A stretch of 33,956 bases of DNA, taken from NCBI GenBank assembly GCA_943348755.1, contig CALQYS010000009.1, forward strand, positions 1-33,956, in the 5' to 3' direction. The DNA comes from Candidatus Nomurabacteria bacterium (lineage in GTDB: Bacteria; Patescibacteriota; Minisyncoccia; Phycocordibacterales; UBA9973). Position 1 is the stretch's first letter; every line of letters starts with the position of its first letter. Both the position numbers and the translations under genes were made by a program. The notes beneath the pieces are model-generated. The model made no database searches. It saw only the letters and a list, made by a program, of their open reading frames with translations, and was not told the DNA's origin. Shown piece after piece: positions 8,074-33,956 of the stretch.

Positions 8074-8088
8074 AATATTTTTTACCCC

Positions 8089-8208: not shown

Positions 8209-9417
8209 CTAGCTAATCCCCCCAGCAAGGTTATAAATAGGCATCAATACAGAAACCAGCAATATGCCCACCCCAAGACCTAAAACCACAATCATAACTG
8301 GCTCTATTAGGCCCACTAAGGTATCGATAGCGTCATCCACTTCACGCCTGTAAAAATCAGTTAAGGTCTTTAAAATAGAGCCCAAGGAGCCCGTTTCTTC
8401 ACCCACTTGCACCATTTGCACCAAAATCCCAGGGATTTCTTTGTCGTGTTTAGCAAATGCAACTGAAAGTGCAAGGCCAGATTTTACCCCATCCGCCACT
8501 TCCCCAAGCAGTCCTTTGTATACACGACTGCCGACAACCTCTGCACTAATGTCTATGGCTCGAACTATAGGGACACCAGAGCTAAGCATTGTGTTTAAGT
8601 TGTCTGTTATTCTGGAAAGAAAAAGCTTTTTGTATAAGTTACCTATAGCTGGAGCAGAAAGCTTTAGTGAATCTAAATATTGCTTCCCCCTTTCTGTAAA
8701 AGACAGGCGCCAAGCCCAAATACCAAGAAGTAGCAAAAAAATTAAAATAAGAAAACCATAATGAATAAAAATATTGGAAATGCCGATAACTATTTTAGTA
8801 TAAACTGGCACTTCTTGACCAGAATCGAGAATAATCGATGAAAGCTTGGGAATGACAACTACAAACATTAAAGTCATCACCACAAAAAATGTAACGATCA
8901 CAAACGCCGGATAGATGAGAGCATTTCGAGTCTTTGAAGTAAGAGAATACTGGCGATCAAGATACTCTGCCAAGTGTAAAAATGTCTGATTGAGTTTACC
9001 GGTTTCTTCACCCACCTTAACCATATTTATATAAAAATCTGAAAATACATCTGGGTGCTTTGCAAGAGCACCAGAGATGGAAATCCCAGACTGTAGATCA
9101 TCGCCAATAGCAGTTAATTTTTTACTTAAAAGCTTATTTTCTGTGTTGGCAGCAAGCATTGTGAAGGCTTTTAACGCTGATACCTGTGCTTCAAAAAGCG
9201 TCGCAATCTGACGAGAAAGAATAACTACATCTTTGTTCGATACTTTGTCGAAAAAAGTAATTGAAAAAATAGATTTCTTGCTTCCTTCCTCGTTAATAGA
9301 AAGAATAACGAGCCCGCGCCTTTGAAGTCCGCTGATCGCAGCATCACGGCTGGGCGCATCAATTTCCCCTTCTTTATTTGAACCTTCTCCATCTATTGCT
9401 TTATATTTAAATAGCAT
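8209..9417 (-). CDS. pilC: Type IV pilus inner-membrane platform protein
   Basis: A 402-residue GspF/PilC family protein, normal for the family. Two homologous cytoplasmic domains are visible (SRQIATLFEAQVSALKAFTM near residue 68 and SRITDNLNTMLSSGVPIVRA near residue 268), each with the KVGEETG or QVGEETG signature, and three membrane helices with a final C-terminal VLGLGVGILLVSVLMPIY. It forms the platform that couples the PilB and PilT motors to pilin insertion. It follows pilT by 4 bases. Confidence 0.95.
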   Translation of the reverse strand: MLFKYKAIDGEGSNKEGEIDAPSRDAAISGLQRRGLVILSINEEGSKKSIFSITFFDKVSNKDVVILSRQIATLFEAQVSALKAFTMLAANTENKLLSKKLTAIGDDLQSGISISGALAKHPDVFSDFYINMVKVGEETGKLNQTFLHLAEYLDRQYSLTSKTRNALIYPAFVIVTFFVVMTLMFVVVIPKLSSIILDSGQEVPVYTKIVIGISNIFIHYGFLILIFLLLLGIWAWRLSFTERGKQYLDSLKLSAPAIGNLYKKLFLSRITDNLNTMLSSGVPIVRAIDISAEVVGSRVYKGLLGEVADGVKSGLALSVAFAKHDKEIPGILVQMVQVGEETGSLGSILKTLTDFYRREVDDAIDTLVGLIEPVMIVVLGLGVGILLVSVLMPIYNLAGGIS

Positions 9418-9421
9418 TGTT

Positions 9422-10480
9422 TTATATCATACGTTCTAGACCCTTTGGATTGAGAGAACACTGATAGGCAGTCTCAATCGCTATCTCCCCGGCACGCACA
9501 AGCTCTATGAGTGAGTGGTTTAAATCTATCATTCCAGACTCCATGCCTGTTTCTATAACTACATCTATCTCGTGTGTACGTTTCTCCCGAATCAAGTTTG
9601 AAACAGCGTTATTGTTTATAAGAAGCTCAAAAGCAGGGATCAGCCCACCAGTAATCCTTGGGAGAAGTCTTTGGGACAAAATACCTAGAAGTGAAGAGGC
9701 GATCTGGGTACGAATTTGATCTTGTTGATCGCCGGGGAAAGAGTCGATTATTCTGTCGATTGTTTGAGAAGCATTGTTAGTATGGAGAGTAGACAATACA
9801 AGGTGCCCAGTCTCGGCTGCTGTAACTGCTGTGGCAATAGTTTCTGGCGTACGCATTTCTCCCACCATTATGACATTAACATCCTCGCGAAAGACTGATT
9901 TTAATGCCACATGAAAATCTTTGGTATCAATACCGACTTCACGCTGACTAATAATGGACTTATTCGGTACATACACGTGCTCAATCGGATCTTCAATGGT
10001 TATAATATTTCTTGCTTGCTCATTGTTAATCACATCAATCATCGCTGATAAAGTAGTAGACTTACCTTGTCCAACAGGACCAACAACTAAGAAAAATCCT
10101 TGCTTCTTGCGAGCAAAATCCGCAATAATAGGAGGAAGATGTAACTCTGCAATAGTCTTGACCTTTGGCACTAGTCGAAAAACAACACAGATGAGACCTT
10201 TCTGGAAAAAGGCATTGCCACGTAGACGCGCTTCCCCGCGAAAATCAAAAGAAAAATCAGATTCCTGACTTTCCATGAATTTGTCTAATTTCACCTTCGG
10301 TAAAACTTCACCTAAAATTCCAATTATATCTTCATTCGTGAAAATCGGATGCTTAACCAAAAATATAAGCTCACCCGCTACCCGGATCGCTGGTACGCGG
10401 TTAGCACCTAAATGCAAATCCGATGCGCCCTCGCGAATAACGTTCAAAATTAGTTCCTCAATTTTTGCTTTGTAATTCAT
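9422..10480 (-). CDS. pilT: Pilus retraction ATPase
   Basis: A 352-residue hexameric ATPase that drives pilus disassembly and retraction. GASDLHLG at the N-terminus, Walker A GPVGQGKST (134-142; usual form GPTGSGKST), Asp box TIEDPIEHVY, Walker B VIMVGEMR (203-210) and His box GHLVLSTLHT (225-234) are all visible. The family's C-terminal AIRNLIRE-like element appears as AVSNLIRE. It lies between a receiver protein (5 bases upstream) and pilC (4 bases downstream), so the three form one transcript. Confidence 0.95.
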   Translation of the reverse strand: MNYKAKIEELILNVIREGASDLHLGANRVPAIRVAGELIFLVKHPIFTNEDIIGILGEVLPKVKLDKFMESQESDFSFDFRGEARLRGNAFFQKGLICVVFRLVPKVKTIAELHLPPIIADFARKKQGFFLVVGPVGQGKSTTLSAMIDVINNEQARNIITIEDPIEHVYVPNKSIISQREVGIDTKDFHVALKSVFREDVNVIMVGEMRTPETIATAVTAAETGHLVLSTLHTNNASQTIDRIIDSFPGDQQDQIRTQIASSLLGILSQRLLPRITGGLIPAFELLINNNAVSNLIREKRTHEIDVVIETGMESGMIDLNHSLIELVRAGEIAIETAYQCSLNPKGLERMI

Positions 10481-10485
10481 AATTT

Positions 10486-10887
10486 TTACTTCGGAACTAC
10501 AACTTTTTTACCCAAAATACTCACTACCTGGTTGATCACTTCTACTGGAGTAGAATTTGCCTTTATAATGTAGCCTGCCACGCCCAACTTATTGCCTTGA
10601 TCGATGTCTGACTGCTGGCTTTTATTAGACAAAACTATCTTTCTACAATTTGGACACAAATTTTCTTGATTTATTTTTTCTAACATCTCAAAGCCATCCA
10701 TCTCTGGCATAATTATATCCATCAACATGACGTCTGGGGATAATCCACCCTTCAATTTTTCTATCGCTTGCGCACCACCTCCGGCTGTATAAACTTCAAA
10801 ATTATTCTGGCTAAATTTTAGCGCATACATATCTAAAAGAAAACTGTCGTCGTCAACTATTAAAATTTTCCTCTTTTCTCCATCCAT
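10486..10887 (-). CDS. Stand-alone response regulator receiver
   Basis: A 133-residue CheY-like receiver without output domain: acidic pocket DDD (12-14), phospho-accepting D57 in LMDIIMPEMDG, switch Ser87 and Lys109. It is the first gene of the unit continuing into pilT and pilC, and so probably regulates pilus extension or retraction like PilG/PilH. Unusual is a CPNC pair (78 and 81) just before strand 4, which could bind metal or form a disulphide. The partner kinase may be the one at 23210-24490, but nothing in the sequence proves it. Confidence 0.9.
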   Translation of the reverse strand: MDGEKRKILIVDDDSFLLDMYALKFSQNNFEVYTAGGGAQAIEKLKGGLSPDVMLMDIIMPEMDGFEMLEKINQENLCPNCRKIVLSNKSQQSDIDQGNKLGVAGYIIKANSTPVEVINQVVSILGKKVVVPK

Positions 10888-10914
10888 ATATTTTTATCTA
10901 TTTAACCAAAACTA

Positions 10915-10942
10915 ATTATACTATATAATGACTTAAAAACAA
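10915..10942 (-). promoter_or_regulatory. Promoter of receiver-pilT-pilC unit
   Basis: Minus-strand TTGTTT (10937-10942), 16-base spacer, TATAAT (10915-10920), about 28 bases before the receiver gene start. Confidence 0.55.
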
Positions 10943-10978
10943 CGCTCTGTGGACAACTAAGCTATATTTTTAATAAAT

Positions 10979-12703
10979 TTACTCGTTTTCATTGCCAAAG
11001 TTATACACTTCCGTGAAAGGAATAATGCCTTCGACTGATTTAAGCATGGCGTCTTCTTTCATCATGAGCATCCCATGTTTACGGGCCACTTTATAAATTT
11101 CTCCATTGGTGGGACTTTTTAATATTACATTTTGGATTTCCTTATCTATTTTAAACATCTCAAAGATAGCAATGCGGCCACGCGTACCAGAAGGACATTC
11201 GCTAGATGGCACTGTCTCATACATCTGACCCTTTGCACCAAATTCTTTTTTAAATTCCGCGGGTAAATCTTTCATCTGCTCTTCAATTTGAATTTTAATA
11301 CTTTCATCCATTGGCACTAATTTTCGAGAAGTTGGACAGGTCATGCGAGCCAAGCGTTGCGCAATAGCCAAAATCAAAGTGGGCGCAATTAGGTATGGAT
11401 CAACACCCATATCCACGAGTCGAGGCACTGCACCAATAGCACTATTTGTGTGAAGTGTTGAAATAACAAGATGCCCGGTCAAAGCTGCCTGGATGGCTAA
11501 TTGGGCTGTTTCCTTATCGCGAATTTCTCCAACCATTATGATATCCGGATCTTGTCGAAGTATAGAACGGAGTCCTGAAGCAAACGTATACCCAATCTCA
11601 GGCATCATTTGCGACTGATTGATATCAGGCATATGGTATTCCACTGGATCTTCAAGAGAAACAATATTACTTTTCTCTCTATCTAACTCATTCATCATCG
11701 AATACAGAGTAGTGGATTTTCCAGAGCCCGTTGGACCGGTGATCAAAATAAGTCCATAAGGGCGCCTGATAGCTTCTCGAATCATATTGAGATTGGTTTC
11801 CGACAGACCTAGCTGATCTAAGGGTTTGACTCCTCGTTCAGAATCCAATATACGCATCGCGATCTTCTCGCCATAATAGGCCGGCATAGTAGATACACGA
11901 AAATCAACTTTACGTCTGTCGATATTGGCACTAAAACTTCCATCTTGAGGCTTTCGTTTTTCATCCAATCTCAGTTTGGATAAAATTTTTATACGTGCCA
12001 CTATCCCGCTATAAACGTTTGGTGGCAATACTATACTGGTATGTAAAACTCCGTCCACTCGAAAACGCACTTTTATTTTCTCTCCCGTGTTTTCAATGTG
12101 TATATCGGAAGCGCCACCCTCTATGGCATTACGGAGGATCACAGCAACTATTTTTATAACTGGTGCGTCTTCTACTATTTTTGCCTCTTCTCCTGGTTTT
12201 ACGTCTGTTATTTCTTTACTGAGGCCCTTAGTTCCATCTTTGTCTAGTTCAGAGAGGGCTTCTTCTACCTGGCTACCGAGTCCTTTATAAGCTTCCATTA
12301 TATTTTCATAATCACTTTTCGAAATGAGATATATTTTAAAAGGAATTCCGAGCTTGGCCGAAATAAACTGTAAGGCATCAAGCGCTTGCACATCTTCTCC
12401 ATTTATGACACCCACTTCTAAAACCCCATCTGTTAATTCAATGGGGGCAAAATGATAGTGTGCTGCCGAATCTTCTGAAATATATTTAAGAGTATTAAAA
12501 GAAATACGTTGCAAGTTTACTTTCTTTACTGGCATTTGCAAATACTTTCCTTTTACTTCAAGAATTTTTTCTTCCGTAACGCCAGATTCAAGTAGGGCTT
12601 GATCAACATCCCCATCGTATTTCTCCTCCGCCCGCGCTTTTATATCGGAAATTTGGCCTTTTTTAATCTCACCTTCTTTTACCAACTCTTCTAAAAAACT
12701 CAT
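10979..12703 (-). CDS. pilB: Pilus assembly (extension) ATPase
   Basis: A 574-residue GspE/PilB family ATPase. It has an N-terminal MshEN-like domain (to about 150), GGASDIHIE, Walker A GPTGSGKST (323-331), Asp box SLEDPVEYHM, Walker B DIIMVGEIRD and His box GHLVISTLHTN. The family usually has a four-cysteine zinc motif after the core; here only C456 (TCPTSRK) and C503 (SECPSG) remain, so the site looks degenerate. It powers pilus polymerisation together with PilC and the PilM-N-O complex. It ends about 90 bases before the receiver gene promoter. Confidence 0.95.
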   Translation of the reverse strand: MSFLEELVKEGEIKKGQISDIKARAEEKYDGDVDQALLESGVTEEKILEVKGKYLQMPVKKVNLQRISFNTLKYISEDSAAHYHFAPIELTDGVLEVGVINGEDVQALDALQFISAKLGIPFKIYLISKSDYENIMEAYKGLGSQVEEALSELDKDGTKGLSKEITDVKPGEEAKIVEDAPVIKIVAVILRNAIEGGASDIHIENTGEKIKVRFRVDGVLHTSIVLPPNVYSGIVARIKILSKLRLDEKRKPQDGSFSANIDRRKVDFRVSTMPAYYGEKIAMRILDSERGVKPLDQLGLSETNLNMIREAIRRPYGLILITGPTGSGKSTTLYSMMNELDREKSNIVSLEDPVEYHMPDINQSQMMPEIGYTFASGLRSILRQDPDIIMVGEIRDKETAQLAIQAALTGHLVISTLHTNSAIGAVPRLVDMGVDPYLIAPTLILAIAQRLARMTCPTSRKLVPMDESIKIQIEEQMKDLPAEFKKEFGAKGQMYETVPSSECPSGTRGRIAIFEMFKIDKEIQNVILKSPTNGEIYKVARKHGMLMMKEDAMLKSVEGIIPFTEVYNFGNENE

Positions 12704-12705
12704 AA

Positions 12706-13113
12706 TTAAGGTAGGGCTTTAAGACCTGTTTTAGCACCTGAACTTGGGCTCCCGGTATTTACTGGTGATACTACGACAGTATCAGCACCAAGTGGAGCAA
12801 ACGGATTTATTCGGCCTTCAGTTCCATCTGGTATAAGTGCTATTCCATGAGAACCGTCTAAGTGAGTAAATGCAACATCAGAAAAAATAGTATCGTCGAG
12901 TTTGATATTGTTAACGCTCAAAAGTAAAGTTAGAAACTCTTGAGTAACATTATCATTGGTGTTCCCTGCTACTGCATTTGGTACCACCGAGCTTGCTGAA
13001 GAAGATACTAAAGCAGAAGAATCAGATGGAGTTTTCTTTGTATAAAAAAGATAGACCGAAACAAGGATCACCCCGATTATTAGAAATATTATTATGTTTT
13101 TTATTTTTGGCAT
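12706..13113 (-). CDS. Membrane-anchored protein, possibly PilP-like
   Basis: A 135-residue protein with an N-terminal membrane anchor (IIIFLIIGVILVSVYLFY, residues 7-24), a Ser-rich linker and a small domain ending with EGRINPFAPLG. The RxNPFxP-type motif and the position between pilO and pilB suggest a counterpart of PilP, which links the PilN-PilO pair to the rest of the machine. There is no lipobox, unlike classical PilP, and I could not align the rest. It lies 2 bases upstream of pilB. Confidence 0.6.
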   Translation of the reverse strand: MPKIKNIIIFLIIGVILVSVYLFYTKKTPSDSSALVSSSASSVVPNAVAGNTNDNVTQEFLTLLLSVNNIKLDDTIFSDVAFTHLDGSHGIALIPDGTEGRINPFAPLGADTVVVSPVNTGSPSSGAKTGLKALP

Positions 13114-13124
13114 GTTTTTTGATT

Positions 13125-13739
13125 TTAATTTTTCAACCAGTAAGTTTTAATTTTAAAATCGTATTTATATGATTCCGCGGAAGGAGAACCAGAAGCTGCA
13201 CTGGCTGCGCCACCAGCGTTAGATGAAAATTGGATTGAAGATATATCGACTATACGAAGGTTGCTCTCTAGGTCTCGTGTAAAATTTAGAAAGTTATTAT
13301 AAGTCCCAGTCGTAGAGAATTCTAGATCCCATACTCCATAATCTTTGTTTTCTGTACGTTGAGATGCTACGCCTCCCTGTATACCACCGACTAGAGGAGT
13401 TCCAGTATTTTTGGTATCGGTTGCATTGTATTTAACATCCTTTAAAACCATACCATAAGGTAATGCTATCTGCCCTATTTCAAGAATTAAACGTATATTA
13501 TCTATATTGTCTGGTAAAAGCTTTTGGAGTTTGGTTAAATTATCTGGATTAATTGAACTTTCTTTTGCAGTTAATATATCACGCTGATTTTCAAGTGCTT
13601 TAGAATTATCTAGTGCCTGATTATAAGACTCCATTTGGGATCTTTTCGATAAAATGTCATCATACATCGGATTCGTAAACACTAAAAAAACAGTGATACT
13701 TATTCCTATTAAAATGATCGGCATTATAAATCTCATCAT
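13125..13739 (-). CDS. pilO: Pilus assembly protein PilO
   Basis: From the ATG at 13739 the protein has 204 residues: one N-terminal membrane helix (MPIILIGISITVFLVF), a coiled coil (about 35-65) and a small ferredoxin-like domain with LPDNIDNIRLILEIGQIA and the later WDLEFSTTGTYNNFLNF motif, as in PilO. A frame-open ATG at 13793 would overlap pilN by 50 bases; the 13739 start lies just after the pilN stop and is preferred. PilO dimerises with PilN in the inner-membrane alignment complex. Confidence 0.88.
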   Translation of the reverse strand: MMRFIMPIILIGISITVFLVFTNPMYDDILSKRSQMESYNQALDNSKALENQRDILTAKESSINPDNLTKLQKLLPDNIDNIRLILEIGQIALPYGMVLKDVKYNATDTKNTGTPLVGGIQGGVASQRTENKDYGVWDLEFSTTGTYNNFLNFTRDLESNLRIVDISSIQFSSNAGGAASAASGSPSAESYKYDFKIKTYWLKN

Positions 13740-13743
13740 AAAT

Positions 13744-14340
13744 TTAAATTGTGGTTTGAAGTGTTTGTTTGTAATTAACAAAACCCGGATCAACTGAAAA
13801 TTCTAAATCAAAAAGAACATTGCCTTTATCATCAAGTGTAAGATTAGAAAAAACAGGATTGATCAAATTTTTATTTTTCGCAAATAGATCAGACTGGAGA
13901 GCGATGGAACGGTAACCGACCGCAAGACCACTCATCTGGACAATTATCTTCGCGGTTTTGTCAGTTGCTAAACTATAACTGAATTTTGTAAAACGAACGG
14001 TTTTCATGGTAATAGCAGAAAGGGCTTGAAAAATGGGAGTCACAGCCATATGCTTAGATAGAATCTCGCTCGATGCGCGTAGACGTTTGTCCAAAACCTG
14101 TAGTTCTGTTATCTTTGAAGGTTCAAAGCGGTTTTTAGCTAGCAAAAGATCATTTTCTTTTTGATTTATATTTTTTGAGAGGCTTACCTGATATAGATAA
14201 AAACCACCTGTTGCGAGAGTAACGGTAAATAAAATAAAAATGCTGATAATGGTAAAAATGCTGATGGACCGTGGAGTGGTGGAGCGCTCTTCCACCATTG
14301 GTTTTTTAGGTATAAACGATGTTTGAAAATTCTGATCCAT
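13744..14340 (-). CDS. pilN: Pilus assembly protein PilN
   Basis: A 198-residue protein with a cytoplasmic N-terminal tail (about 27 residues, the PilM-binding part in homologues), one membrane helix (FTIISIFILFTVTLATGGFY), a coiled coil and a small periplasmic domain. The tail has FIPKKP rather than the classical INLLP. It has its own -10 box 8 bases upstream of the ATG and is followed within 4 bases by pilO, so pilN-pilO-PilP-like-pilB probably form one unit. Confidence 0.88.
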   Translation of the reverse strand: MDQNFQTSFIPKKPMVEERSTTPRSISIFTIISIFILFTVTLATGGFYLYQVSLSKNINQKENDLLLAKNRFEPSKITELQVLDKRLRASSEILSKHMAVTPIFQALSAITMKTVRFTKFSYSLATDKTAKIIVQMSGLAVGYRSIALQSDLFAKNKNLINPVFSNLTLDDKGNVLFDLEFSVDPGFVNYKQTLQTTI

Positions 14341-14348
14341 TGTACCTA

Positions 14349-14354
14349 ATTATA
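14349..14354 (-). promoter_or_regulatory. -10 box of pilN unit
   Basis: Minus-strand TATAAT 8 bases before the pilN ATG, with TTTTGT 17 bases further upstream. The mRNA would be leaderless or nearly so. Confidence 0.5.
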
Positions 14355-14460
14355 TTACAAAATAGCAAATAACAAAAGCATATTGTGCATAACTTTGGCT
14401 ATATATTCGCACTTGGTACCCAGATTTACCCGAAGAACTCAAAAATAGACTCAAAACAAC

Positions 14461-15597
14461 TCATTTTAACTTTCGCAAGGCTAAACCCAGAGCAACGGCA
14501 AATTCAGCACCCATGGTTTCTAAGACTTTTCCTAGAAATGCTGGAGCATTCACTTTAGAGAAAGGCAAACCGACCTCTATTTCAACTCGAAAATCATCTG
14601 CTGCTACCTCTTTCAGCCCTTTGAGAAGAGATCCGCCACCCGTAAATATCACTTTGCTTATAGTCCTGTTGTTTCTTTTTTCATATTCGGACAACGCATT
14701 TCTGGTTTCAGAAAGTATATAGTCGGTGTGAATTTTGATTATATCAGCTAAACTTTTTTCGGCCGGATTCCCAAAAAGACCAAAGTCTTTCTTCATTTTT
14801 TCGGCCTCCGAAAAAGGGATACTTAAGGACTGAGAGATGGATTGAGAAATGTCCGCTCCACCTCGTTCTATCGTGTGATAGCTTTTGACCATGCCAAACT
14901 CGACGATAGAAAGCTTCGTCCGCGATGCGCCGAAATCCATGAGTAGAACCGGGGAAAGTTCATGCTCAAAATTCGCCCTTATTGAAGAAAAAATTTCAAT
15001 CTCAAAAAAAGAAGTCGAGAGAGAACATTGTGAAACAACCGCGCGATATTTAGAAATCGCATCATTTTGTGTAGCGACAACAAGTACACTTATTTTTTCT
15101 GATTTTTTCTGCGGGACATCAGAATTTGAAACAGTGTTCATCTCCTCAAATGAAGATTCTTTTTGGGGCAGTATAAAATAATCAAGTGAAACTTCGGTGA
15201 TTGGTACTGGAATATATTTTCGAGCCTCCGTTGGGACTATCGTGGCCATTTCACTTTCTTTTATGGAAGATGGCAATTCGATAGTAAAGATTAAACTTGA
15301 CTGCACAGGAATAGAAAAAGCTGGAGAAGTGGTAACCACCCCAGATTGTTTAAGAACTTCTTTTAGGGCTTCTGCCACTTTTTCCACAGAAAGATTGGTG
15401 ACACGTCCAGCATCAAGACCGTCATAAGGACCAAGCGCTATCGCTCCGTAAGTTTCAAGTATGGCCTTACCTCCTTTTGTCTTAATCTCCACTACTTTGA
15501 TAGCAGAAGAGCCAATATCAACACCAACAGCGCTATTTTCAGCGCCACCTCCTAAATTACTCAGACTAGAAAAAAATTTTCTCAACGGATTGTCCAT
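14461..15597 (-). CDS. pilM: Pilus assembly protein PilM (actin-like ATPase)
   Basis: A 378-residue FtsA/actin-fold protein. VGVDIGSSAIKVVEIK (phosphate 1), VLLMDFGASRTKLSIVE (phosphate 2) and IFTGGGSLLKGLKE (adenosine motif) are in the expected order. It is cytoplasmic and binds the PilN tail. It is separated from pilN by 120 bases with a new promoter, and it is transcribed divergently from comF across a 40-base gap that holds both -10 boxes. Residues about 165-180 hold a Ser/Glu-rich insertion with no obvious role. Confidence 0.93.
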   Translation of the reverse strand: MDNPLRKFFSSLSNLGGGAENSAVGVDIGSSAIKVVEIKTKGGKAILETYGAIALGPYDGLDAGRVTNLSVEKVAEALKEVLKQSGVVTTSPAFSIPVQSSLIFTIELPSSIKESEMATIVPTEARKYIPVPITEVSLDYFILPQKESSFEEMNTVSNSDVPQKKSEKISVLVVATQNDAISKYRAVVSQCSLSTSFFEIEIFSSIRANFEHELSPVLLMDFGASRTKLSIVEFGMVKSYHTIERGGADISQSISQSLSIPFSEAEKMKKDFGLFGNPAEKSLADIIKIHTDYILSETRNALSEYEKRNNRTISKVIFTGGGSLLKGLKEVAADDFRVEIEVGLPFSKVNAPAFLGKVLETMGAEFAVALGLALRKLK

Positions 15598-26148: not shown

Positions 26149-26152
26149 GCGG
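26149..26152. other. Left attachment half-site (attL core GCGG)
   Basis: The core is followed by gggttactgg, identical to one side of the internal inverted site. To its left is host sequence ending ccaacgcta, not repeated elsewhere in the window. Confidence 0.7.
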
Positions 26153-26337
26153 GGGTTACTGGACAAAGTTCGAAATTACTTCGAGCAAAATCCAAATGAT
26201 TAAATTACTAAAAATGGACTCGGCAGGGCGAAACAATATTTTTGGGGATATGGGTTCGCCCTGCCTCGGCTAATGTTTTTGAAATTCGGCGAGATTCGGA
26301 ATTCTGCCCGCAGGAGGGGTTTGGGGAGGAATGCGGG
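26149..26337 (+). repeat. 189-bp perfect inverted repeat, left copy (A)
   Basis: Reverse complement of 31901-32089 without a mismatch that I could find. It contains an internal hairpin, ggcagggcgaa with ttcgccctgcc, and a second one, cccgca with tgcggg, near the cargo side. No protein-coding gene is supported in it. Confidence 0.95.
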
Positions 26338-26422
26338 AAACACAAAATCCAAAATGCTCGGTGCCTTCGTGTATCATATCACATTGTGTCAGGTCTAAAG
26401 GAATACACCCTCGGCATCCGCC

Positions 26423-26441
26423 TCGGGAATTTCCGCTAGGG
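26423..26441 (+). repeat. Inverted repeat arm, left
   Basis: tcgggaatttccgctaggg is the reverse complement of the block at 26708-26726 (ccctagcggaaattcccga). Nearby gagcgcc/ggcgctc words also match, so the arms are about 35 bases with gaps, enclosing about 270 bases. Confidence 0.75.
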
Positions 26442-26462
26442 CTACGAGCGCCAGTTCTAGGT

Positions 26463-26502
26463 ATGGGAACGGCTCAAATACCAGTAAATGAGCCGTTCCC
26501 AT
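26463..26502. repeat. Palindromic hairpin repeat, intergenic copy
   Basis: A 14-base perfect stem (atgggaacggctca with its complement) and a 12-base loop. The central 30 bases occur again, inverted and nearly identical, inside the winged-helix gene at 27082-27111. Confidence 0.85.
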
Positions 26503-26510
26503 TTCTGGTT

Positions 26511-26533
26511 GGGGAGAGGATTCTCCTCTCCCC
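26511..26533. repeat. Perfect hairpin
   Basis: A 10-base stem ggggagagga/tcctctcccc with the 3-base loop ttc. No U-tract follows on either strand. Confidence 0.8.
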
Positions 26534-26707
26534 AGTGCGTTGCCTCGGTTCGTGCTCCTTTCAGTCGCATCCCGCAGAGCGGGACAGGGCTCACCCCACC
26601 CGGCCGCACAAACCCCTCTCAGTTTTTTCATGTCCGTGTTTATTGTGTCGCTTTCGCTACGAACTTATGAATTGCATATCACACAGGCGCTCGTCTTTAG
26701 CCCAGAC

Positions 26708-26726
26708 ACCCTAGCGGAAATTCCCG
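26708..26726 (+). repeat. Inverted repeat arm, right
   Basis: ccctagcggaaattcccga, partner of 26423-26441. Read outward from the hairpin region, both arms translate to a similar peptide, LAEIPE followed by Ala/Gly/Asn-rich sequence. Confidence 0.75.
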
Positions 26727-26754
26727 AAGGCGCAAATGCAAATACGCTTGACCC

Positions 26755-26778
26755 AGTCCGTCTGAGTACAGACGGACT
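26755..26778. repeat. Perfect hairpin with 4-base loop
   Basis: agtccgtctg and cagacggact flank agta. It lies 48 bases after the stop of the winged-helix gene and could end that operon, although only short U-runs are nearby. Confidence 0.75.
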
Positions 26779-26825
26779 ACCCACCCATTCGCGCGTAAAT
26801 TTTGCTCCCTTAAATTTTTAAATAT

Positions 26826-27377
26826 TTAAATTCGAGAATACGAAACTCCTTTTCCAGTTTTTCCACTTTGTTTTATTTTCCCTTCTTTTTCTAGTTGTGA
26901 GAGATATCTTGTTGCTGTTGCGTCCGAGACATGAAGAAATTTCTCGACTTCATCATTCGTAATTTTAGATTGTTGTAAAAACAGAGACATTACTTTATCC
27001 AGTTTCTTTCTTTTTCTGAATTGGATTGCGTTTCGGGCAGATATTAGAAGTTCACGAGCAAGCGAAGATTTTTGTTTTACCAACGGCTCATTTACTGGTG
27101 TTTGAGCCGTTTCAGGTTTAGAAGTTCGATTATCCTCAATTTCAGGGCTAGATTCCGATTCTGGCCTTATGGGTTCAGGCTCGTTTTCTGCTCCATTAGC
27201 ATTATTGACCGGAATGGCACTTTCGCTATTCCTAGGGCTTTCTAGGGCCTCTGAAGGCACATCCGAGGGTTCGGAAATAGGGGTAATTTCAGGTGCCTGC
27301 TCGGTGGGCTCTTGGGGGCTTGTAGGTAAAGAGTTTTCTTCGGGAGTTTGGTTTTGGTCTTGGTTTTCGTCAGACAT
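26826..27377 (-). CDS. Winged-helix protein with long disordered N-terminus
   Basis: A 183-residue protein. Residues 1-100 are Pro/Glu/Ser/Thr-rich and certainly disordered; residues about 103-183 contain a basic helix (RNAIQFRKRKKLDKVMSLFL) followed by a winged helix-turn-helix, ITNDEVEKFLHVSDATATRY, and a wing KIKQSGKTGKGVSYSRI. It probably binds DNA, perhaps as a regulator of the operon. It is the last gene after the Shedu-like nuclease and the small protein, with 6 bases between genes. A palindromic repeat (27082-27111) encodes TAQTPVNEP in the disordered part. Confidence 0.75.
   Translation of the reverse strand: MSDENQDQNQTPEENSLPTSPQEPTEQAPEITPISEPSDVPSEALESPRNSESAIPVNNANGAENEPEPIRPESESSPEIEDNRTSKPETAQTPVNEPLVKQKSSLARELLISARNAIQFRKRKKLDKVMSLFLQQSKITNDEVEKFLHVSDATATRYLSQLEKEGKIKQSGKTGKGVSYSRI
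27082..27111. repeat. Palindromic hairpin repeat, copy inside a gene
   Basis: aacggctca and tgagccgtt form a 9-base stem with a 12-base loop; 11 of 12 loop bases equal the intergenic copy at 26463-26502 when that is reverse-complemented. It is translated in the disordered domain of the winged-helix protein. Confidence 0.8.
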
Positions 27378-27383
27378 ATCAAT

Positions 27384-27590
27384 TTAGACATCATAACCCT
27401 CTTTTTCATATTTATCTAAAAATTCTTCAGCCTCTTTTAGTGTTTTAAAAAAACTAACTTCGTGTCCTATACCATCTCTGTCTATTTTATTTTTCTTCCG
27501 CTTAGTATTAAAGACAGAAAACTTGTTATCAGTTTCCATAATGTCAAACCAATATTTTTTAATAAATTTTTCTTTGATTATTTTGTGCAT
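27384..27590 (-). CDS. Small basic protein in Shedu-like operon
   Basis: A 68-residue protein, Lys-rich at the N-terminus, with alternating aromatic and charged residues and a C-terminal helix (FKTLKEAEEFLDKYEKEGY). I recognise no family. It is 5 bases after the nuclease stop and 6 bases before the winged-helix start, which supports it as a real gene and as part of the same functional unit, for example an accessory or inhibitor. Confidence 0.6.
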   Translation of the reverse strand: MHKIIKEKFIKKYWFDIMETDNKFSVFNTKRKKNKIDRDGIGHEVSFFKTLKEAEEFLDKYEKEGYDV

Positions 27591-27595
27591 TATTG

Positions 27596-28738
27596 TTATT
27601 TATTTTCTACAATAAAACTAGCTCTCTTAAACAATTCGTCAAAAGTAATGATATCTATTCCGTGTATTGATTTTCGAAATCTCTGAAAAGTTTCTCTTTT
27701 ATTTCTTTCAGTACCAAATTCAGCTAGAGAACCGATAACAATAATTCCTTTTGGTTGTACTGTGTGAGTGTTTTCTTTTTCAAGTCTATCTCTATTTTCT
27801 GGCTGTTCTGATCCTTGTTTTTCCCAAGTATAAATATTTGCTTCGATTTGAGATAGGGCATCGGTGAGATTTTTAGACAAACTCCATGCACCATTTCTTA
27901 TTGGCGTAGTTCCTTGAAGTAAGGATGTTGCTGGGGTTTTGATTTCTACAAGAACGGTGAAATTAATATCACCATCAGTTGATGTTAGATAATCTCCCTT
28001 TTGACCGCCAGTACCATCAACTTTTTCGCCACCATAATGGGGCTGAGCTTGCTCTTGTCTTAAAATTTGGTAATTTAAGCCATAGCCAAAAATCCATTTA
28101 TTCTGTTCAAAAAAATCTTGCCACCAACTTTCATCTGAAGCATGTTCAGTTAATGCTTTTTTAAATTCTTCTAATTTTTCTCTACGTTTTATAACAACAC
28201 TCAAATCATCTTCAGAAAGGCTTACACCAGGTATGGATGAAAGTTGTTTTATAATACTGACAATACTTTTTACATCTCTACCACGCAAAGCTGAAACAAT
28301 TTCCCCCTCCCCCTGAGATACTAATGAAAATTTTCCTGCGGGTATTTCGATATCCTTTAGTGATTGCAAGAATGAAATTAATTGCCAAAAATTGTCATGG
28401 CAATCATCCAGATTGACACTCGCTTTTGTTAAACTAGCATTTTCTTCCTCTGAACTTTTTACTTCTAAAATTTTACCACTTTTATCACGAGTCGAGAGCG
28501 CTAGTCTTGGAGTAAATTTCTCCCCCTTCTTTATCAGTTTTACTTGGCAAATATAATCCACTCTTTCCTTTTCGTGAAGAACAAATTGTTTAACAATTGA
28601 ATTGTTTTTCTTATTTGAAAAGTAATAGAAGTTCTGAATAGCTGTCGGGTTAATTTGTAAGTCTGAAAAACTATCTTCACCGATTACAAAATCTTTACTT
28701 TTACCAAATTGATTCATAAAAATCTTGGAAAATTTCAT
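27596..28738 (-). CDS. Shedu-like (DUF4263) nuclease, candidate anti-phage protein
   Basis: A 380-residue protein. The C-terminal part (about 200-380) resembles DUF4263, the nuclease domain of Shedu defence protein SduA: WWQDFFEQNKWIFGYGLNYQ, then a PD-(D/E)xK-type core with D249 (KGDYL) and E265-x-K267 (LVEIKTP). The N-terminal 200 residues are a separate beta-rich and helical domain without known match; SduA proteins vary in this part. Such nucleases cut DNA upon phage infection. It lies in the mobile element and leads an operon with two small genes, with a -10 box 7 bases before the ATG. Confidence 0.75.
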   Translation of the reverse strand: MKFSKIFMNQFGKSKDFVIGEDSFSDLQINPTAIQNFYYFSNKKNNSIVKQFVLHEKERVDYICQVKLIKKGEKFTPRLALSTRDKSGKILEVKSSEEENASLTKASVNLDDCHDNFWQLISFLQSLKDIEIPAGKFSLVSQGEGEIVSALRGRDVKSIVSIIKQLSSIPGVSLSEDDLSVVIKRREKLEEFKKALTEHASDESWWQDFFEQNKWIFGYGLNYQILRQEQAQPHYGGEKVDGTGGQKGDYLTSTDGDINFTVLVEIKTPATSLLQGTTPIRNGAWSLSKNLTDALSQIEANIYTWEKQGSEQPENRDRLEKENTHTVQPKGIIVIGSLAEFGTERNKRETFQRFRKSIHGIDIITFDELFKRASFIVENK

Positions 28739-28745
28739 TATCTTG

Positions 28746-28751
28746 ATAATA
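28746..28751 (-). promoter_or_regulatory. -10 box of Shedu-like operon
   Basis: Minus-strand TATTAT 7 bases before the ATG at 28738, giving a leaderless transcript. It separates the operon from the peptidase gene upstream. Confidence 0.4.
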
Positions 28752-28767
28752 CCAAATTAGAGGCCAC

Positions 28768-29418
28768 TTACTTTAACCGCCGTATTGTTTCCTTGTTCCC
28801 ATTAATAACAATTACTTCACCATCCCTTAAAGTTTTGTAAGGTATTTTGTTTTTCTCTAGGTATTCAATTTCCGTTTCAACCGCCGCTGATTCGGGATGA
28901 TCTGAACGATAATGCACAGCAATATTATAATCCACCAACCCAAGTCCATCCCAACTAAATTCCGGAGCATATCTTTCTGGAACTATGTTTGGGTCATCCA
29001 CTATTTCCAAGCCCTTCATTGAAGGAGATAAAATAACTACTCCAGCGCTGTAGCCCCCGTAAACTATTTTATCTTTAGCAAGCATCTCTTTTATAATCAA
29101 ATCAAAACCACTTTGCTCATAAGCGCGTTTTAGTACAAAAGTATTGCCTCCGAGAACCCAAACTAATCCAAACGTAGACAAGTATTCTTTCAGTGCTTCT
29201 TTTTTGCCGAAATATTTTTTCAAATCAAGCTTTTCAGCCGAAAAGCCAAATGAGTTTAAAGTTTGTATCTGTTCTCGCAAGCCTTTCTCAGCTCGCTCCC
29301 TATCTTGGCTCCAATCTCGCGAATTTCCAATAACTGCTACTTTTTTATTATTTCCGACGAGTTTTAGTAGTTCATCAGTAAAATTTCCAAATTTGTATGA
29401 AGATAAATAAAGTCTCAT
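28768..29418 (-). CDS. S51-family peptidase (dipeptidase E-like)
   Basis: From the ATG at 29418 the protein has 216 residues, close to the family norm. WVLGGNTFVLKRAY and the nucleophile elbow VYGGYSAGVVIL (S124) are clear S51 signatures, and the C-terminal half contains AVHYRSDHPES, with a candidate catalytic histidine. The start is fixed by a TATAAT box at 29428-29433, 9 bases upstream, because a further ATG at 29457 would lie before the promoter. The family cleaves aspartyl dipeptides or related substrates; here the substrate is unknown. Confidence 0.88.
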   Translation of the reverse strand: MRLYLSSYKFGNFTDELLKLVGNNKKVAVIGNSRDWSQDRERAEKGLREQIQTLNSFGFSAEKLDLKKYFGKKEALKEYLSTFGLVWVLGGNTFVLKRAYEQSGFDLIIKEMLAKDKIVYGGYSAGVVILSPSMKGLEIVDDPNIVPERYAPEFSWDGLGLVDYNIAVHYRSDHPESAAVETEIEYLEKNKIPYKTLRDGEVIVINGNKETIRRLK

Positions 29419-29427
29419 ATAATTTAT

Positions 29428-29433
29428 ATTATA
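29428..29433 (-). promoter_or_regulatory. -10 box of S51 peptidase gene
   Basis: Minus-strand TATAAT 9 bases before the ATG at 29418; short or no leader. It is divergent from the promoter at 29466-29493. Confidence 0.5.
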
Positions 29434-29465
29434 CAGAGTTAGTTTATTCTTATCCACACCCCCTG

Positions 29466-29493
29466 TTTACAGATATTAAAGATATGCTATTAT
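29466..29493 (+). promoter_or_regulatory. Promoter of folded leader
   Basis: TTTACA (29466-29471), 16-base spacer, TATTAT (29488-29493). Predicted start near 29500, about 360 bases upstream of the orphan gene at 29862. Confidence 0.5.
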
Positions 29494-29619
29494 CTAGATG
29501 TGAATAAGAATATACAGCAAAATATCGTTGTGAGCTCAAGCTTGCTCCTACTCAGCCCTAAAACTAGAAGGCTGATCTTTGCGCTGTAAAAATCTCTCAA
29601 AAACAAAACTTACAACCCA

Positions 29620-29645
29620 AACACCAGCCTTCTAAGGCTGGTGTT
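29620..29645 (+). terminator. Terminator-like hairpin in the leader
   Basis: aacaccagcctt and aaggctggtgtt, 12 bases each, almost no loop. Followed by ctcgttt, so the U-tract is poor. Its 5' half can instead pair with 29565-29574. Confidence 0.5.
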
Positions 29646-29763
29646 CTCGTTTAACCGAGAATACTTGTTCTTTAAAAATAAAAGTACGCCAAAAATATTG
29701 GAAGGTTTTTGTGGAAACCTCTCGAGCTTTTGTGGCTTTTACTGGCGTACTTGACATATAAGT

Positions 29764-29838
29764 TTTCGATAGGTTTCCTCACGAGCCCTCCAGTATTCCT
29801 GGAGGGCTCGACGCGTTTAATGAAGAAACCCATCGAAA
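29764..29838 (+). repeat. Nested inverted repeat just upstream of orphan gene
   Basis: Outer arms tttcgataggtttc (29764-29777) and gaaacccatcgaaa (29825-29838) match except for one G-U pair; inner arms cgagccctccag (29782-29793) and its exact complement (29799-29810) have a 5-base loop. It ends 13 bases before the Shine-Dalgarno sequence. Confidence 0.8.
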
Positions 29839-29850
29839 AAACCCACCAAT

Positions 29851-29856
29851 AAGGAG
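29851..29856 (+). promoter_or_regulatory. Strong ribosome binding site
   Basis: AAGGAG, 5 bases from the ATG at 29862. It is exceptional in a window where most starts have none. Confidence 0.7.
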
Positions 29857-29861
29857 AACCT

Positions 29862-30452
29862 ATGAAAATCGTCGAAGGAATGTTTTACACCTACCCACAC
29901 AAGCCCGAACTGGTTGGCACCCATCCAGTTATGGGTGAAGTGTGGCGTAAGTGTATCGCACTTCTCGGTGAGGATGGTGTGATGGCCCCTCTTCTCGTTG
30001 ATGACCGTCGACAGCGAGGAGCAATCACACGCCAAACCGTAGAGGGTGTACTCAATCACACTACTGGAAAGGGCTACGAATCATTTCCATGGATTGCCTC
30101 ACAAGTAAGTGAAGCCCAACTGGAAGCCAGACACAAAACCTGCGAGTGTTCCACGTTGTATCTGGAATACCATATTCTTGTCATGTGGTATCTCCAATTT
30201 CTGTCGGTGCACTGGACTTGGACGAAAGTCCATCCGGTCTACTTTCAGGAAACCAACGCGAAAACGCTTGAGAGTTTGATCAAGCGGATGCCTGGAGATG
30301 ACAGAGCTAGATCCTTCTTTCTTTCTCGCTTCGATCATTTCTGGGTCGAGAAAGATGGTGGGGTGATTCACACGCGTCCCGTGTGGAAAAACGGAGAGGT
30401 GAAGCATGAGCCAATTCTTGATCATGACTTCGCTTTTTCCGTGGAATACTAA
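29862..30452 (+). CDS. Orphan protein behind folded leader
   Basis: A 196-residue protein that I do not recognise. It is rich in aromatic residues and His/Trp (for example LSVHWTWTKVHPVYF), with no signal peptide or membrane helix; CECSTLY at about residue 98 is the only cysteine pair. The gene is clearly GC-richer than its neighbours and, unlike nearly every other gene here, has a strong Shine-Dalgarno sequence, AAGGAG (29851-29856), 5 bases before the ATG. Both suggest recent transfer from another host. It lies between a structured leader and a long hairpin (30541-30587). Confidence 0.7.
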   Translation: MKIVEGMFYTYPHKPELVGTHPVMGEVWRKCIALLGEDGVMAPLLVDDRRQRGAITRQTVEGVLNHTTGKGYESFPWIASQVSEAQLEARHKTCECSTLYLEYHILVMWYLQFLSVHWTWTKVHPVYFQETNAKTLESLIKRMPGDDRARSFFLSRFDHFWVEKDGGVIHTRPVWKNGEVKHEPILDHDFAFSVEY

Positions 30453-30540
30453 CACACAGGGGAAGGGCCACCAGGAGCTGATTACTAATGCGAGTTCGGC
30501 GCTATCCGAGCAACAGGCCGAGAATCCTGATCAACTTCTC

Positions 30541-30587
30541 ATGGAAGCCAGCACTAAAATCCTAAAAGGATTGTGCTGGCTCTCCAT
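30541..30587 (+). terminator. Long hairpin after the orphan gene
   Basis: atgga/tccat, gccagcac/gtgctggc and aatcct/aggatt form a stacked hairpin with small bulges and an aaa loop. It is 88 bases after the stop and 26 bases before the aminotransferase start. The following sequence is AT-rich but not a clean U-tract. Confidence 0.55.
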
Positions 30588-30613
30588 TAACACTTCATTT
30601 AATTTTAATTACC

Positions 30614-31891
30614 ATGAAAAATATAAAACCATATAACAGAAACAAATACATAGGGCGTTCGCAAAACTTAGATCTCTATGGTGTTGTTATTGAGCGTGCG
30701 CGCAAAAATTATTTAATTGATATTAATGGAAAAGAATATATAGATATGCTTTCCTCCGCTTCGTCATTACCTTTGGGCTACGAACGAAAAGATTTAGTTA
30801 AGGCATATTCAGATCAGTGTAAAAAAGTCCCTCACACCTGCACTGTATATACCTATACTCCTATTGTGGAGAAGTATGTAAAACGACTCATCAAAACAAG
30901 TAAAATAAAAAATGCTAAAGTCTTGCTAGGAGCTTTTGGTTCTGACTCTATTGACGCAGCTTTTAAATGCGCTCAGGCATATACAGGTAAGAAAAAATTT
31001 ATTGCTTTTAAGAAGGCTTATCATGGAGGCACTTTTCTTTCGCTTGCAAGTAATGGTTTTGATGGAATAAAGAAAAATCTATATTTACCAGATTTATTTA
31101 AACACGTTAACTATCCAACTTCGGAGCATTATAAAAAAACTCTTTTGGATATAGAAAAAATTCTTAAAAAAGGAAATACGGCAGCTCTCATTATGGAAAC
31201 TATCCTTGGGGATGGGGGTATTTTTATGCCTAGTCCAGAATTTTATAAAAATATAAAAAAGTTGTTGCATAAATATGGTGCGATTTTAATTTTTGACGAA
31301 ATTCAAACAGGAATGGGACGCACCGGTACATTCTGGGGTTATGAACAGTTTAAAATTAAACCAGATCTTTTTTGTTCTGCAAAAGGTTTAGGTGGTGGGT
31401 ATGCTGTTTTGAGCGCATGTATTGGACGTGCAGAGATAATAGATAGTCTCACTAATTGTCAAAATGCTTTTACTTTGTCGGCACACTCTGCGAGTTGTGC
31501 TGTAGGGCTTCGTGTAATAAATGCTATTTATGAGGAGAAAGTAATGGAAAATGTAAAAAAAGTAAGTAATTTATTACGAGATTTTTTTGAAAAAAATCTT
31601 AAGGATAGTAAGATATTTTTAGAAGTGCGAGGTAAAGGTCTTATGCTTGGAATTGCCCTTAGAAGTGATAAATCTATTGGTTCTTATATTGGAAAATTAT
31701 GTTTAAAGGAAGGTGTTTATGTTGGATACTATGGTGAGAACAATAATGTATTGCGTATTCATCCAGCACTTAATATTGATTCCAAAACAGCACTTGAAGG
31801 AGCAAAACGAATTGTTCGTGCTGTGAAATTATTTGAGAACAATCAAGAAAAATATTCAAAAGACACTTTCTTGTCCTTCTTCACTTCTTAA
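30614..31891 (+). CDS. Class III PLP-dependent aminotransferase
   Basis: A 425-residue class III aminotransferase: GSDSIDAAFKCAQAYTG (PLP phosphate region), AYHGGTFLSLAS, LIFDEIQTGMGRTGTF with D228, and the PLP lysine K257 in CSAKGLGGGYAV. The size fits the GABA/diaminobutyrate/glutamate-semialdehyde group, but the substrate cannot be chosen by eye. There are no other biosynthetic genes beside it, and its composition is AT-rich, unlike the preceding orphan gene. It ends 9 bases before repeat A, at the edge of the cargo. Confidence 0.9.
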   Translation: MKNIKPYNRNKYIGRSQNLDLYGVVIERARKNYLIDINGKEYIDMLSSASSLPLGYERKDLVKAYSDQCKKVPHTCTVYTYTPIVEKYVKRLIKTSKIKNAKVLLGAFGSDSIDAAFKCAQAYTGKKKFIAFKKAYHGGTFLSLASNGFDGIKKNLYLPDLFKHVNYPTSEHYKKTLLDIEKILKKGNTAALIMETILGDGGIFMPSPEFYKNIKKLLHKYGAILIFDEIQTGMGRTGTFWGYEQFKIKPDLFCSAKGLGGGYAVLSACIGRAEIIDSLTNCQNAFTLSAHSASCAVGLRVINAIYEEKVMENVKKVSNLLRDFFEKNLKDSKIFLEVRGKGLMLGIALRSDKSIGSYIGKLCLKEGVYVGYYGENNNVLRIHPALNIDSKTALEGAKRIVRAVKLFENNQEKYSKDTFLSFFTS

Positions 31892-31900
31892 TTCAAAACG

Positions 31901-32089
31901 CCCGCATTCCTCCCCAAACCCCTCCTGCGGGCAGAATTCCGAATCTCGCCGAATTTCAAAAACATTAGCCGAGGCAGGGCGAACCCATATCCCCAAAAAT
32001 ATTGTTTCGCCCTGCCGAGTCCATTTTTAGTAATTTAATCATTTGGATTTTGCTCGAAGTAATTTCGAACTTTGTCCAGTAACCCCCGC
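31901..32089 (-). repeat. 189-bp perfect inverted repeat, right copy (A)
   Basis: Exact reverse complement of 26149-26337. It joins repeat B at the shared core (ccgc on the plus strand, 32086-32089). Together with 32086-32205 it forms the internal att copy. Confidence 0.95.
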
Positions 32090-32205
32090 AAAATTTCGGG
32101 TGAAGAATTTTCGCCAAAAAATGCGCCCGCGCGAAGCGCGGGTGATGCCGCCAAATCCGCACCAAACCCAAACCCCGCCAGGATTTTCCACGCTCCGCGT
32201 GGCTC
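32086..32205 (+). repeat. 120-bp inverted repeat, left copy (B)
   Basis: Reverse complement of 33764-33883 with a single difference (tttgg/ttcgg within the reverse-complement reading). It contains two short hairpins, cccgcgc-gaa-gcgcggg and ccacgc/gcgtgg. Confidence 0.93.
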
Positions 32206-32300
32206 TTCGTTGCCAATGCAAAAACAAATATGGTAATATTGACTGGTAACCAACCCAACAGCTTCGCTTTTTATTTTGCAATTTTTTAATTGTGAATCTT

Positions 32301-32357
32301 AAAGGGCATCTCTGTCAGTTTAGCGAAAGCTGGATTGGTTACACAGAGTTGCCCTTT
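32301..32357 (+). promoter_or_regulatory. Hairpin in recombinase leader
   Basis: aaagggcatctctgt (32301-32315) pairs with acagagttgcccttt (32343-32357), 14 of 15 bases, with an inner agc-gaaa-gct loop, then tttgggttttta and the recombinase ATG at 32370. It looks like a terminator or attenuator that controls recombinase expression. Confidence 0.6.
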
Positions 32358-33763
32358 TGGGTTTTTAATATGAACAATCAAACCAAAAAATTTTTCATAT
32401 ATACTCGCAAGTCTACGGATGACAAAGACAGACAAGTCCGAAGTATTTCTGATCAACTTTCAGAGTTAAAGGAATTAGCGATGAAAGAAAGTTTAGAAAT
32501 CGTTGATGTCTTTGTCGAAAAGCAGACCGCCAAAATACCAGGTCGTCCGGTATTTAATGAAATGATGGAAAGAATGGAAAAAGGCGAAGCGGAAGGTATT
32601 TTGGCGTGGCATCCAGACAGACTTGCGAGAAACTCGGTAGATGGTGGAAAAATTATCTACCTAGTTGATACCGGAATAATTAAAGATTTAAAATTCTCAA
32701 CTTTTTGGTTTGACCCCACACCGCAAGGAAAGTTCATGCTCTCGATCGCATTTTCGCAATCCAAGTACTATGTAGATAATTTGTCGGAGAACATCAAGCG
32801 AGGACACCGAAACAAACTCAAAGAAGGAATATGGCCTCGAAACGCTCCGATGGGATATGTGAATGATAGCGAGAAGAAAATTATCATTCCCGATCCCGAG
32901 CGTGCGTCATATATCAAGAAAGCGTTCGAGGCATATGCAAGTGGTAAATATACCCTCCGACAAATTAGGGATATGATAACAGGACTTGGATTGCGCTCAA
33001 TGAAAAGTGAAGAACTTTCCGTCTCCGTCATGCATGAAATACTTAGAAACCCAATTTTCTGCGGACTGATGCGGTATGGGGGTGAAATCCACGAAGGAAA
33101 GCACGAACCGATTATCACAAAGAAACTTTTTGACCAATGCCAGGAAGTGATGATGAGAAAATCAAAACCAAAAGAAACAGGACTCAAAACATATTTGTAT
33201 CGTGGATTTTTCCGTTGCGGAGAATGTGGTTGCTTCATTACCACCGAAACACAAAAAGGTCTAACTTTATACGCTGTACTAAACGGAAAAATACGTGTGT
33301 GCAAAAATATGTTCGTGAAGAAATCATCACTTCCCAAATTACAGAAAATATCAAAAAAGTTTCTTTGCCTCCCGATTGGGCAAAGTGGATGATTGCCGAA
33401 AACGAAAAAGACAAGCAATCAGCCGTCCAATCGAGTGAGATTTTTTCTCAATCGACCAAAGACGAAATTTCTCTTTTGGATTCTAAAATTGAGAAGCTGA
33501 TGAATGCATATTTAGAGAACGCACTTTCTCTGGAAGAATATCGAGATGCAAAAAGTGCGCTCGTTGGCTCTAAACAGCTTCTCAAAGAGAAATTATCGTC
33601 TTTTGATAAAAAATCTCATAATCGGTTCGAACTTACAGAAAAATTCCTAAAGAACAATATTACCAACATGGAATTGGCTAACGACAAAACGAATGAAGAA
33701 AATCTTCATTCGTTCCAAAAAGTCGGTTCGAACTTTAGAATTCACAATCGAACCTTACTTTTT

Positions 33764-33883
33764 GAGCCACGCGGAGCGTGGAAAATCCTGGCGGGGTTTG
33801 GGTTTGGTGCGGATTCGGCGGCATCACCCGCGCTTCGCGCGGGCGCATTTTTTGGCGAAAATTCTTCACCCGAAATTTTGCGG
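33764..33883 (-). repeat. 120-bp inverted repeat, right copy (B)
   Basis: Partner of 32086-32205 (119 of 120 bases). It ends with GCGG, of which the last three bases lie in the tRNA-Ser 3' end. Confidence 0.93.
33880..33883. other. Right attachment half-site (attR core GCGG)
   Basis: Shared core with 26149-26152 and, inverted, 32086-32089. It overlaps the discriminator base and first acceptor-stem bases of tRNA-Ser. Confidence 0.7.
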
Positions 33884-33956
33884 AGCCGGACGGATTCGAA
33901 CCGTCGAGGGGGTTTAAATCCCCTACCTCTTTAGCAAAGAGGGACCTTAGACCGCT
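33881..33956 (-). tRNA. tRNA-Ser (anticodon GCU), 5' end cut by window
   Basis: On the minus strand the anticodon arm is cctct-ttgctaa-agagg with anticodon GCT, followed by a long variable arm (ggggatttaaacccc) as in class II tRNAs and a T arm gacgg-ttcgaat-ccgtc. The acceptor 3' strand is cggctcc with discriminator G at 33881. CCA is not encoded (caa follows). The D arm is truncated at the window end. It is the integration target of the element. Confidence 0.92.

Follow-up and report, generated by a model that had tools for sequence, protein, structure and literature searches.

DIRS1 carries internal complementary regions that are the inverse complements of both its ends and that overlap at a short circular-junction motif; the motif is common to the target, and no target-site duplication is made (PMC3266345). 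In CTX phage, an inverted attP1/attP2 pair in single-stranded DNA forms a working att site for XerC/D (PMC4246890). Here we describe an integrated element that recalls both, located at positions 26,149 to 33,883 of a 33,956-nucleotide stretch (the window), which is the whole of contig C9 (CALQYS010000009.1) in the 13-contig, 694-kb genome of a Candidatus Nomurabacteria bacterium (GCA_943348755.1). As in DIRS1, an inverted internal copy of both ends overlaps at the junction motif; however, DIRS1 is eukaryotic, with a reverse transcriptase, a tyrosine recombinase, and inverted terminal repeats that resemble one another, whereas this element is bacterial, uses a serine recombinase, has a left end (L) unlike its right end (R), targets tRNA genes, and contains no identified reverse transcriptase. 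Because the defining reverse transcriptase and tyrosine recombinase are absent, we do not class it as a DIRS element. The likeness to CTX phage lies in a pair of inverted att copies, carried by the same molecule and able to pair on a single strand; attP1 and attP2, however, are ~90 bp apart, match imperfectly, and are served by host tyrosine recombinases that exchange one strand, whereas here the arms measure 84–356 bp, lie kilobases apart, and accompany a serine recombinase, and no phage genes were recognised in the window element. As on the 2-micron plasmid with its FLP recombinase, a circular form would be divided into two arms by a pair of inverted recombination sites, but there is no sign of arm inversion, the recombinase is of another family, and the element is found integrated. 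With serine-integrase islands and prophages it shares a large serine recombinase at one end, a short target-matching core, and variable cargo; in those systems attP is lost on integration, whereas a complete inverted attP is kept here. We file the element as a variant of the serine-recombinase integrative elements: its recombinase is of a known kind, and, as far as this can be tested, its architecture is new for bacteria. A first-pass annotation of the window, made from the letters alone, knew of no described serine-recombinase element with such a layout, and we found no description of one in open-access papers, a coverage outside which most subscription papers and preprints fall.

In its general form, the element reads X-L-cargo-L'R'-recombinase-R-tRNA, where L' and R' are the internal inverted copies of the two ends. 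In the window, L starts and R stops at the core GCGG, and L' and R' overlap by these four bases (32086–32089; Table 1). On the minus strand, the 305-bp internal copy has the order R-GCGG-L, which is the joint that closing the element on itself would give. The first-pass annotation had compared the three GCGG junctions and taken the internal one for the joint that excision would create. All three read exactly as it wrote them, its matches of 189 and 120 bases are borne out by inverted-repeat comparison (100% and 99%), and the sizes that it gave (a 7731-bp circle, the 305-bp internal copy, a 5563-bp cargo arm, and a 1558-bp recombinase arm) are all correct. Its interpretation of the internal copy is supported at the base level in most elements of the family described below. 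Judged by its bases, the internal L'R' is a complete attP retained within the integrated element.

Elements of this kind are a widespread family of integrative elements that sit at tRNA ends with a serine recombinase. The recombinase is present in 34 of 60 related genomes, and a one-genome-per-species scan with recombinase alignment returned 80 loci, drawn from many Patescibacteria and also from records named Elusimicrobia, Marinimicrobia, and further groups. We scored the layout symmetrically on both strands over 111 recombinases: R arms flank the recombinase on both sides in 76, and the full layout is present in 28 (27 distinct), from Patescibacteria and other phyla and at many tRNAs. Many of the remaining loci are cut by contig ends, often located within the arms. 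All 28 complete elements have the L pair on the recombinase 5' side, and one of them, L085, comes from a record titled complete genome (AP024682.1). Paired inverted copies, which had been proposed as something to seek in related genomes, were therefore found repeatedly, and the layout is not a one-off. Element size ranges from 3.7 to 10.9 kb, with L arms of 89–356 bp, R arms of 84–155 bp, a recombinase interval of 1.4–1.6 kb, and cargo of 1.7–8.5 kb. In most elements, the bases of the internal copy around the core match those of R-core followed by core-L exactly, and the core overlap, common to both ends and the target tRNA, is 3–6 bp long. The whole R-core-L is present in inverted form inside every complete element, so that attP is not lost on integration. 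More distant serine recombinases (27–50% identity) are mostly without an R pair by the criterion used, and the layout therefore marks a clade and not serine recombinases as a whole. A search of IMG/VR for free circles or phage-borne copies gave 16 matches, mostly remote and none with the layout; only some of these viral-contig loci have flank enough to judge arms, and among those the remote serine-integrase relatives do not show them. Of the 16 matches, only L142 is edged by an inverted pair, 62 bp long.

The host genome itself holds several members. Searching it with the 305-bp internal sequence uncovered more inverted pairs, including a second complete element on contig C6 with an L pair of 288 bp (100%), an R pair of 130 bp (100%), the core GTGA, and an intact recombinase, its R end lying at the 3' end of a tRNA-Glu. 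Contig C4 contains L, cargo, L'R', and the start of a recombinase before the contig ends, and the start of C10 is an R that matches the C4 element, at tRNA-Ser(TGA). C12 ends in another R and C8 in another L, while C3 has an L pair around a type IIG restriction gene, without an R pair beside its more distant recombinase. Besides the window and C6 elements, the genome thus has parts of at least three more.

The target in the window is a tRNA-Ser. ARAGORN called no tRNA at the element end because the contig stops inside the gene; the anticodon GCT is readable directly in the antisense tRNA sequence there, and the 85%-related element L043 adjoins a complete tRNA-Ser(GCT). The family survey and the recombinase domains (PF00239 and PF07508 in the window copy; the same two plus the zinc ribbon PF13408 in the intact homologues L041 and L036) support the earlier description of a mobile element with a serine recombinase and a tRNA-Ser target. 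In eight relatives (G001, G002, G008, G017, G069, G072, G075, and G102), the FIST gene of the window lies near tRNA-Ser(GCT), with no element, inverted arms, or recombinase within the fetched stretch. The distance between FIST gene and tRNA differs among them, and the string ccaacgcta-GCGG-agcc, expected by the first-pass annotation at an empty site, is not kept. Since the joined flank string is not conserved, the claim of an empty site stands on gene order. Across the family, the core follows the tRNA at which the element now sits (GCGG for Ser, GCTG for Gln, GTGA for Glu, GCTCC for Asn, and GAG for Thr in the table of junctions). The left flank outside the core is unrelated from element to element; on these sequences, the tRNA half together with the core therefore appears to set the target. 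In L055 (~1780–1800), an L-like motif, GGTTCAAACTTTGTCCAAC, directly precedes the core of an element-free tRNA-Ser(GCT), and is either a scar or a natural similarity to att. Three loci (L085, L103, and L067) are tandem stacks in which a second recombinase element lies next to the tRNA and has its left end at, or close to, the right core of the first element.

Two further properties bear on how the internal copy might be used: the orientation of the element is fixed, and its arms are kept nearly identical. In 83 loci, the recombinase has the tRNA on its 3' side. In L081 (4017–4239), a locus cut by a contig end, a tRNA-Ser joined to the inner R arm is present on the 5' side only, and in L056 (9778–11596) the recombinase stands between tRNA-Ser(GGA) and tRNA-Ser(GCT). 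Both of these L056 tRNA genes meet an R arm at the core, and the assembly has no R copy beyond these two arms. Set against one clear exception, the 83 loci give a binomial p of ~1e-23, or ~2e-13 when only 42 inferred target changes are counted. A quick recombinase tree implies that the tRNA isoacceptor changed ~42 times and the amino acid 18 times, so that many independent insertions share the orientation rather than one orientation having been inherited. The cargo is oriented as well, since 89 of 100 open reading frames (ORFs), counted by hand, point away from the internal junction. As for the arms, the R arms of the 120-bp group have a median identity of 99.2% within an element versus 74.2% between elements; near-identity within and divergence between indicate that the copies are often recopied from each other. 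This recopying proceeds without the inversions expected of crossovers between inverted repeats. Homogenised arms and a fixed orientation are easier to reconcile with strand pairing than with homologous exchange in a double-stranded circle, because crossovers in such a circle would also invert.

We tentatively propose, as a reading that is well worth considering but short of probable, that the two ends use the internal copy as their template and partner, by way of single-stranded DNA. The element would become single-stranded either through uptake by a Com system or by displacement during replication. L would anneal to L' and R to R', so that the two ends would meet at the core, facing a strand that has no break; the annealing would create a double-stranded attP, and no directionality factor would be needed for an exact join. 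Insertion by the recombinase at the 3' end of a tRNA would follow, always the same way round, and the paired arms would be kept identical, without inversion, through mismatch repair or through copying from one to the other. Candidates for a single-strand route, ComEC and DprA, are encoded in the genome of the window, and Saccharibacteria, which also belong to the Patescibacteria, are naturally competent (PMC10633639). A wider claim, which we regard as rather doubtful, is that these elements represent a bacterial class whose movement combines a single-stranded DNA stage with a serine recombinase: both ends would pair with the inverted internal copy, which would close the element without an excision factor and build the double-stranded att site, making the class a counterpart of DIRS1 minus reverse transcription.

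Several points weigh against single-strand pairing. The circular and the single-stranded form are both predicted from assembled sequences. Known serine recombinases cut both strands. If they acted on a folded single strand, the chromosome ends would be left capped by hairpins; synthesis of the second strand would therefore have to precede recombinase action, yet it would restore two double-stranded attP sites, and the fixed orientation would need a further reason. The window cargo showed no gene for a Rep protein or a relaxase. The identities of L and R pairs are uncorrelated over 27 elements (rho 0.19, p 0.33), a pattern that independent gene conversion of each arm would fit better. A joint reset of both arms at each move, which predicts correlated identities, is not supported by this value.

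The main rival combines a regulatory role with gene conversion. The arms would act in regulation or insulation, as a divergent control region with hairpin terminators at the ends, and would be held identical by gene conversion, while the internal copy would stay idle during ordinary serine-integrase-island movement. Such a role agrees with the reading of cargo and recombinase away from the internal junction, with the GC-rich hairpins in the arms, and with the independent variation of L and R identities. It does not account for an internal copy that has the exact core, tracks the core of the present tRNA, and amounts to a complete joint beyond promoter and terminator regions; moreover, the circle would hold two identical attP sites, yet orientation is fixed. 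We consider this explanation rather unlikely.

Alternatively, the internal copy could be a spare double-stranded attP in the integrated state, which could recombine with another tRNA attB and would need neither excision nor a directionality factor. L056, with its two R arms at different tRNA-Ser genes, is the product expected of internal attP and a second attB, and the truncated L081 resembles it; these are only two cases, though, and each contig may be a short-read chimera. The reaction would also rearrange the chromosome, would not itself copy the element, and leaves the identity of the arms unexplained, and we judge it distinctly unlikely. Very improbable is the mechanism favoured by the first-pass annotation, in which the two equivalent inverted att sites of an excised circle recombine and flip one arm as in FLP and the 2-micron plasmid. 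The geometry follows from the window sequence, but equal att sites predict a 50:50 orientation, in conflict with a recombinase that reads toward the tRNA in 83 loci and with the oriented cargo. In addition, serine integrases acting without a directionality factor join attP to attB, not attP to attP, and none is known to recombine attP with attP. Two adjacent inverted-repeat transposons, an assembly artefact, or chance are scarcely credible: each half does have its own inverted ends and many contigs stop within arms, but the same three-part layout, short overlap included, is seen again in assemblies made independently and in L085, which rules out the artefact named earlier as a ground for dismissing the internal copy.

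Table 1. Features of the window element and its target (positions in the window)
Feature	Position	Strand	Basis or remarks
Left arm L (left end of element)	26149–26337	+	Core GCGG 26149–26152 at start; inverted match to 31901–32089; aligned with L arms of other elements
Winged-helix DNA-binding protein	26826–27377	-	PF13412; homologue at same place in C3 element (L009)
Small ORF, 68 amino acids, no family	27384–27590	-	ORF list, family scans
Shedu anti-phage protein SduA	27596–28738	-	PF14082 E=8.7e-33; PADLOC SduA E=2.6e-144
Peptidase family S51	28768–29457	-	PF03575 E=1.5e-18
ORF, 196 amino acids, no family	29862–30452	+	ORF list, family scans
Class-III aminotransferase	30614–31891	+	PF00202 E=2.3e-82
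L' (internal inverted L copy)	31901–32089	-	189 nt, 100% complementary to 26149–26337
R' (internal inverted R copy)	32086–32205	-	120 nt, 99% to 33764–33883, one mismatch
Recombinase leader, two interleaved helices (pseudoknot or attenuator)	32245–32360	+	Covarying helices in eight leaders
Large serine recombinase, in-frame N-terminal part	32370–33392	+	Resolvase PF00239, recombinase PF07508
Right arm R (right end of element)	33764–33883	+	Core GCGG 33880–33883 at end; recombinase C-terminus also coded here
tRNA-Ser(GCT) 3' part, target	33880–33956	-	Read from sequence; whole tRNA at same place in L043; element-free relatives

The large serine recombinase is placed at the tRNA end of the element. 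In the window, its frame is one base out near 33260 (33250–33270) relative to the intact relatives L043 and L041, and the C-terminal part is read in a different frame, up to 33934; from its sequence, this copy may be inactive, or the contig may contain an error. Often, the coding frame of the recombinase extends across R and the core into antisense tRNA, so that the target encodes part of the recombinase C-terminus. Upstream, leaders with two long interleaved helices that covary among elements are seen in the window, L110, L028, L023, L037, L040, L093, and L011 (~10965–11055). Scored sequence by sequence against 300 shuffles each, six of the eight leaders beat 300/300, the window 295/300, and C4 285/300. 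An Rfam scan of the window element gave no credible match, nor any for the recombinase leader. Several L arms share a hairpin of the type CTCGGTTTTGCGAA...TTCGCAAAACCGAG (window 26222–26265; L010 ~7691–7739), and a second, GC-rich hairpin lies at the inner arm boundary; these hairpins could be terminators or single-strand structures.

The cargo of the family is variable and rich in defence genes, with type I, II, and IIG restriction-modification, PD-Lambda-5, and other systems elsewhere; it also includes metabolic genes, a D-Ala-D-Ala ligase, and a MazF/PemK-like protein. We noticed no conserved gene for a directionality factor among the cargo, though no systematic search was aimed at one. An RNA intermediate made by the element's own reverse transcriptase was rejected: the window cargo has no family match to such an enzyme, and the only match in the genome (PF00078, G000:C4:43372-44040) is ~12 kb from the C4 element and not beside it. 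A 30-bp sequence ending AACGGCTCA/TGAGCCGTT occurs ahead of and within the winged-helix gene, both in the window (26468–26497 and 27082–27111) and in L009 (~7284–7317 and ~7885–7916), which are two elements of one genome; it is possibly an operator or a recopied sequence. Outside the element, a type IV pilus/pseudopilin cluster on the minus strand (3029–15597) encodes prepilin-like proteins, a peptidase, ATPases, and a PilM-like protein.

The arms break short-read assemblies, and the family is probably under-seen. It is spread through Patescibacteria and other phyla, and its variable cargo often serves defence (Shedu, type I/II/IIG restriction-modification, PD-Lambda-5). The proposed pairing raises the question of whether a serine recombinase acts on a single-stranded or self-templated att site, and the intact homologues provide ready recombinase/att pairs for many tRNA genes. 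For naturally competent bacteria with reduced genomes, the family offers a concrete and testable account of how movement could occur in elements with no obvious genes for conjugation or phage functions.

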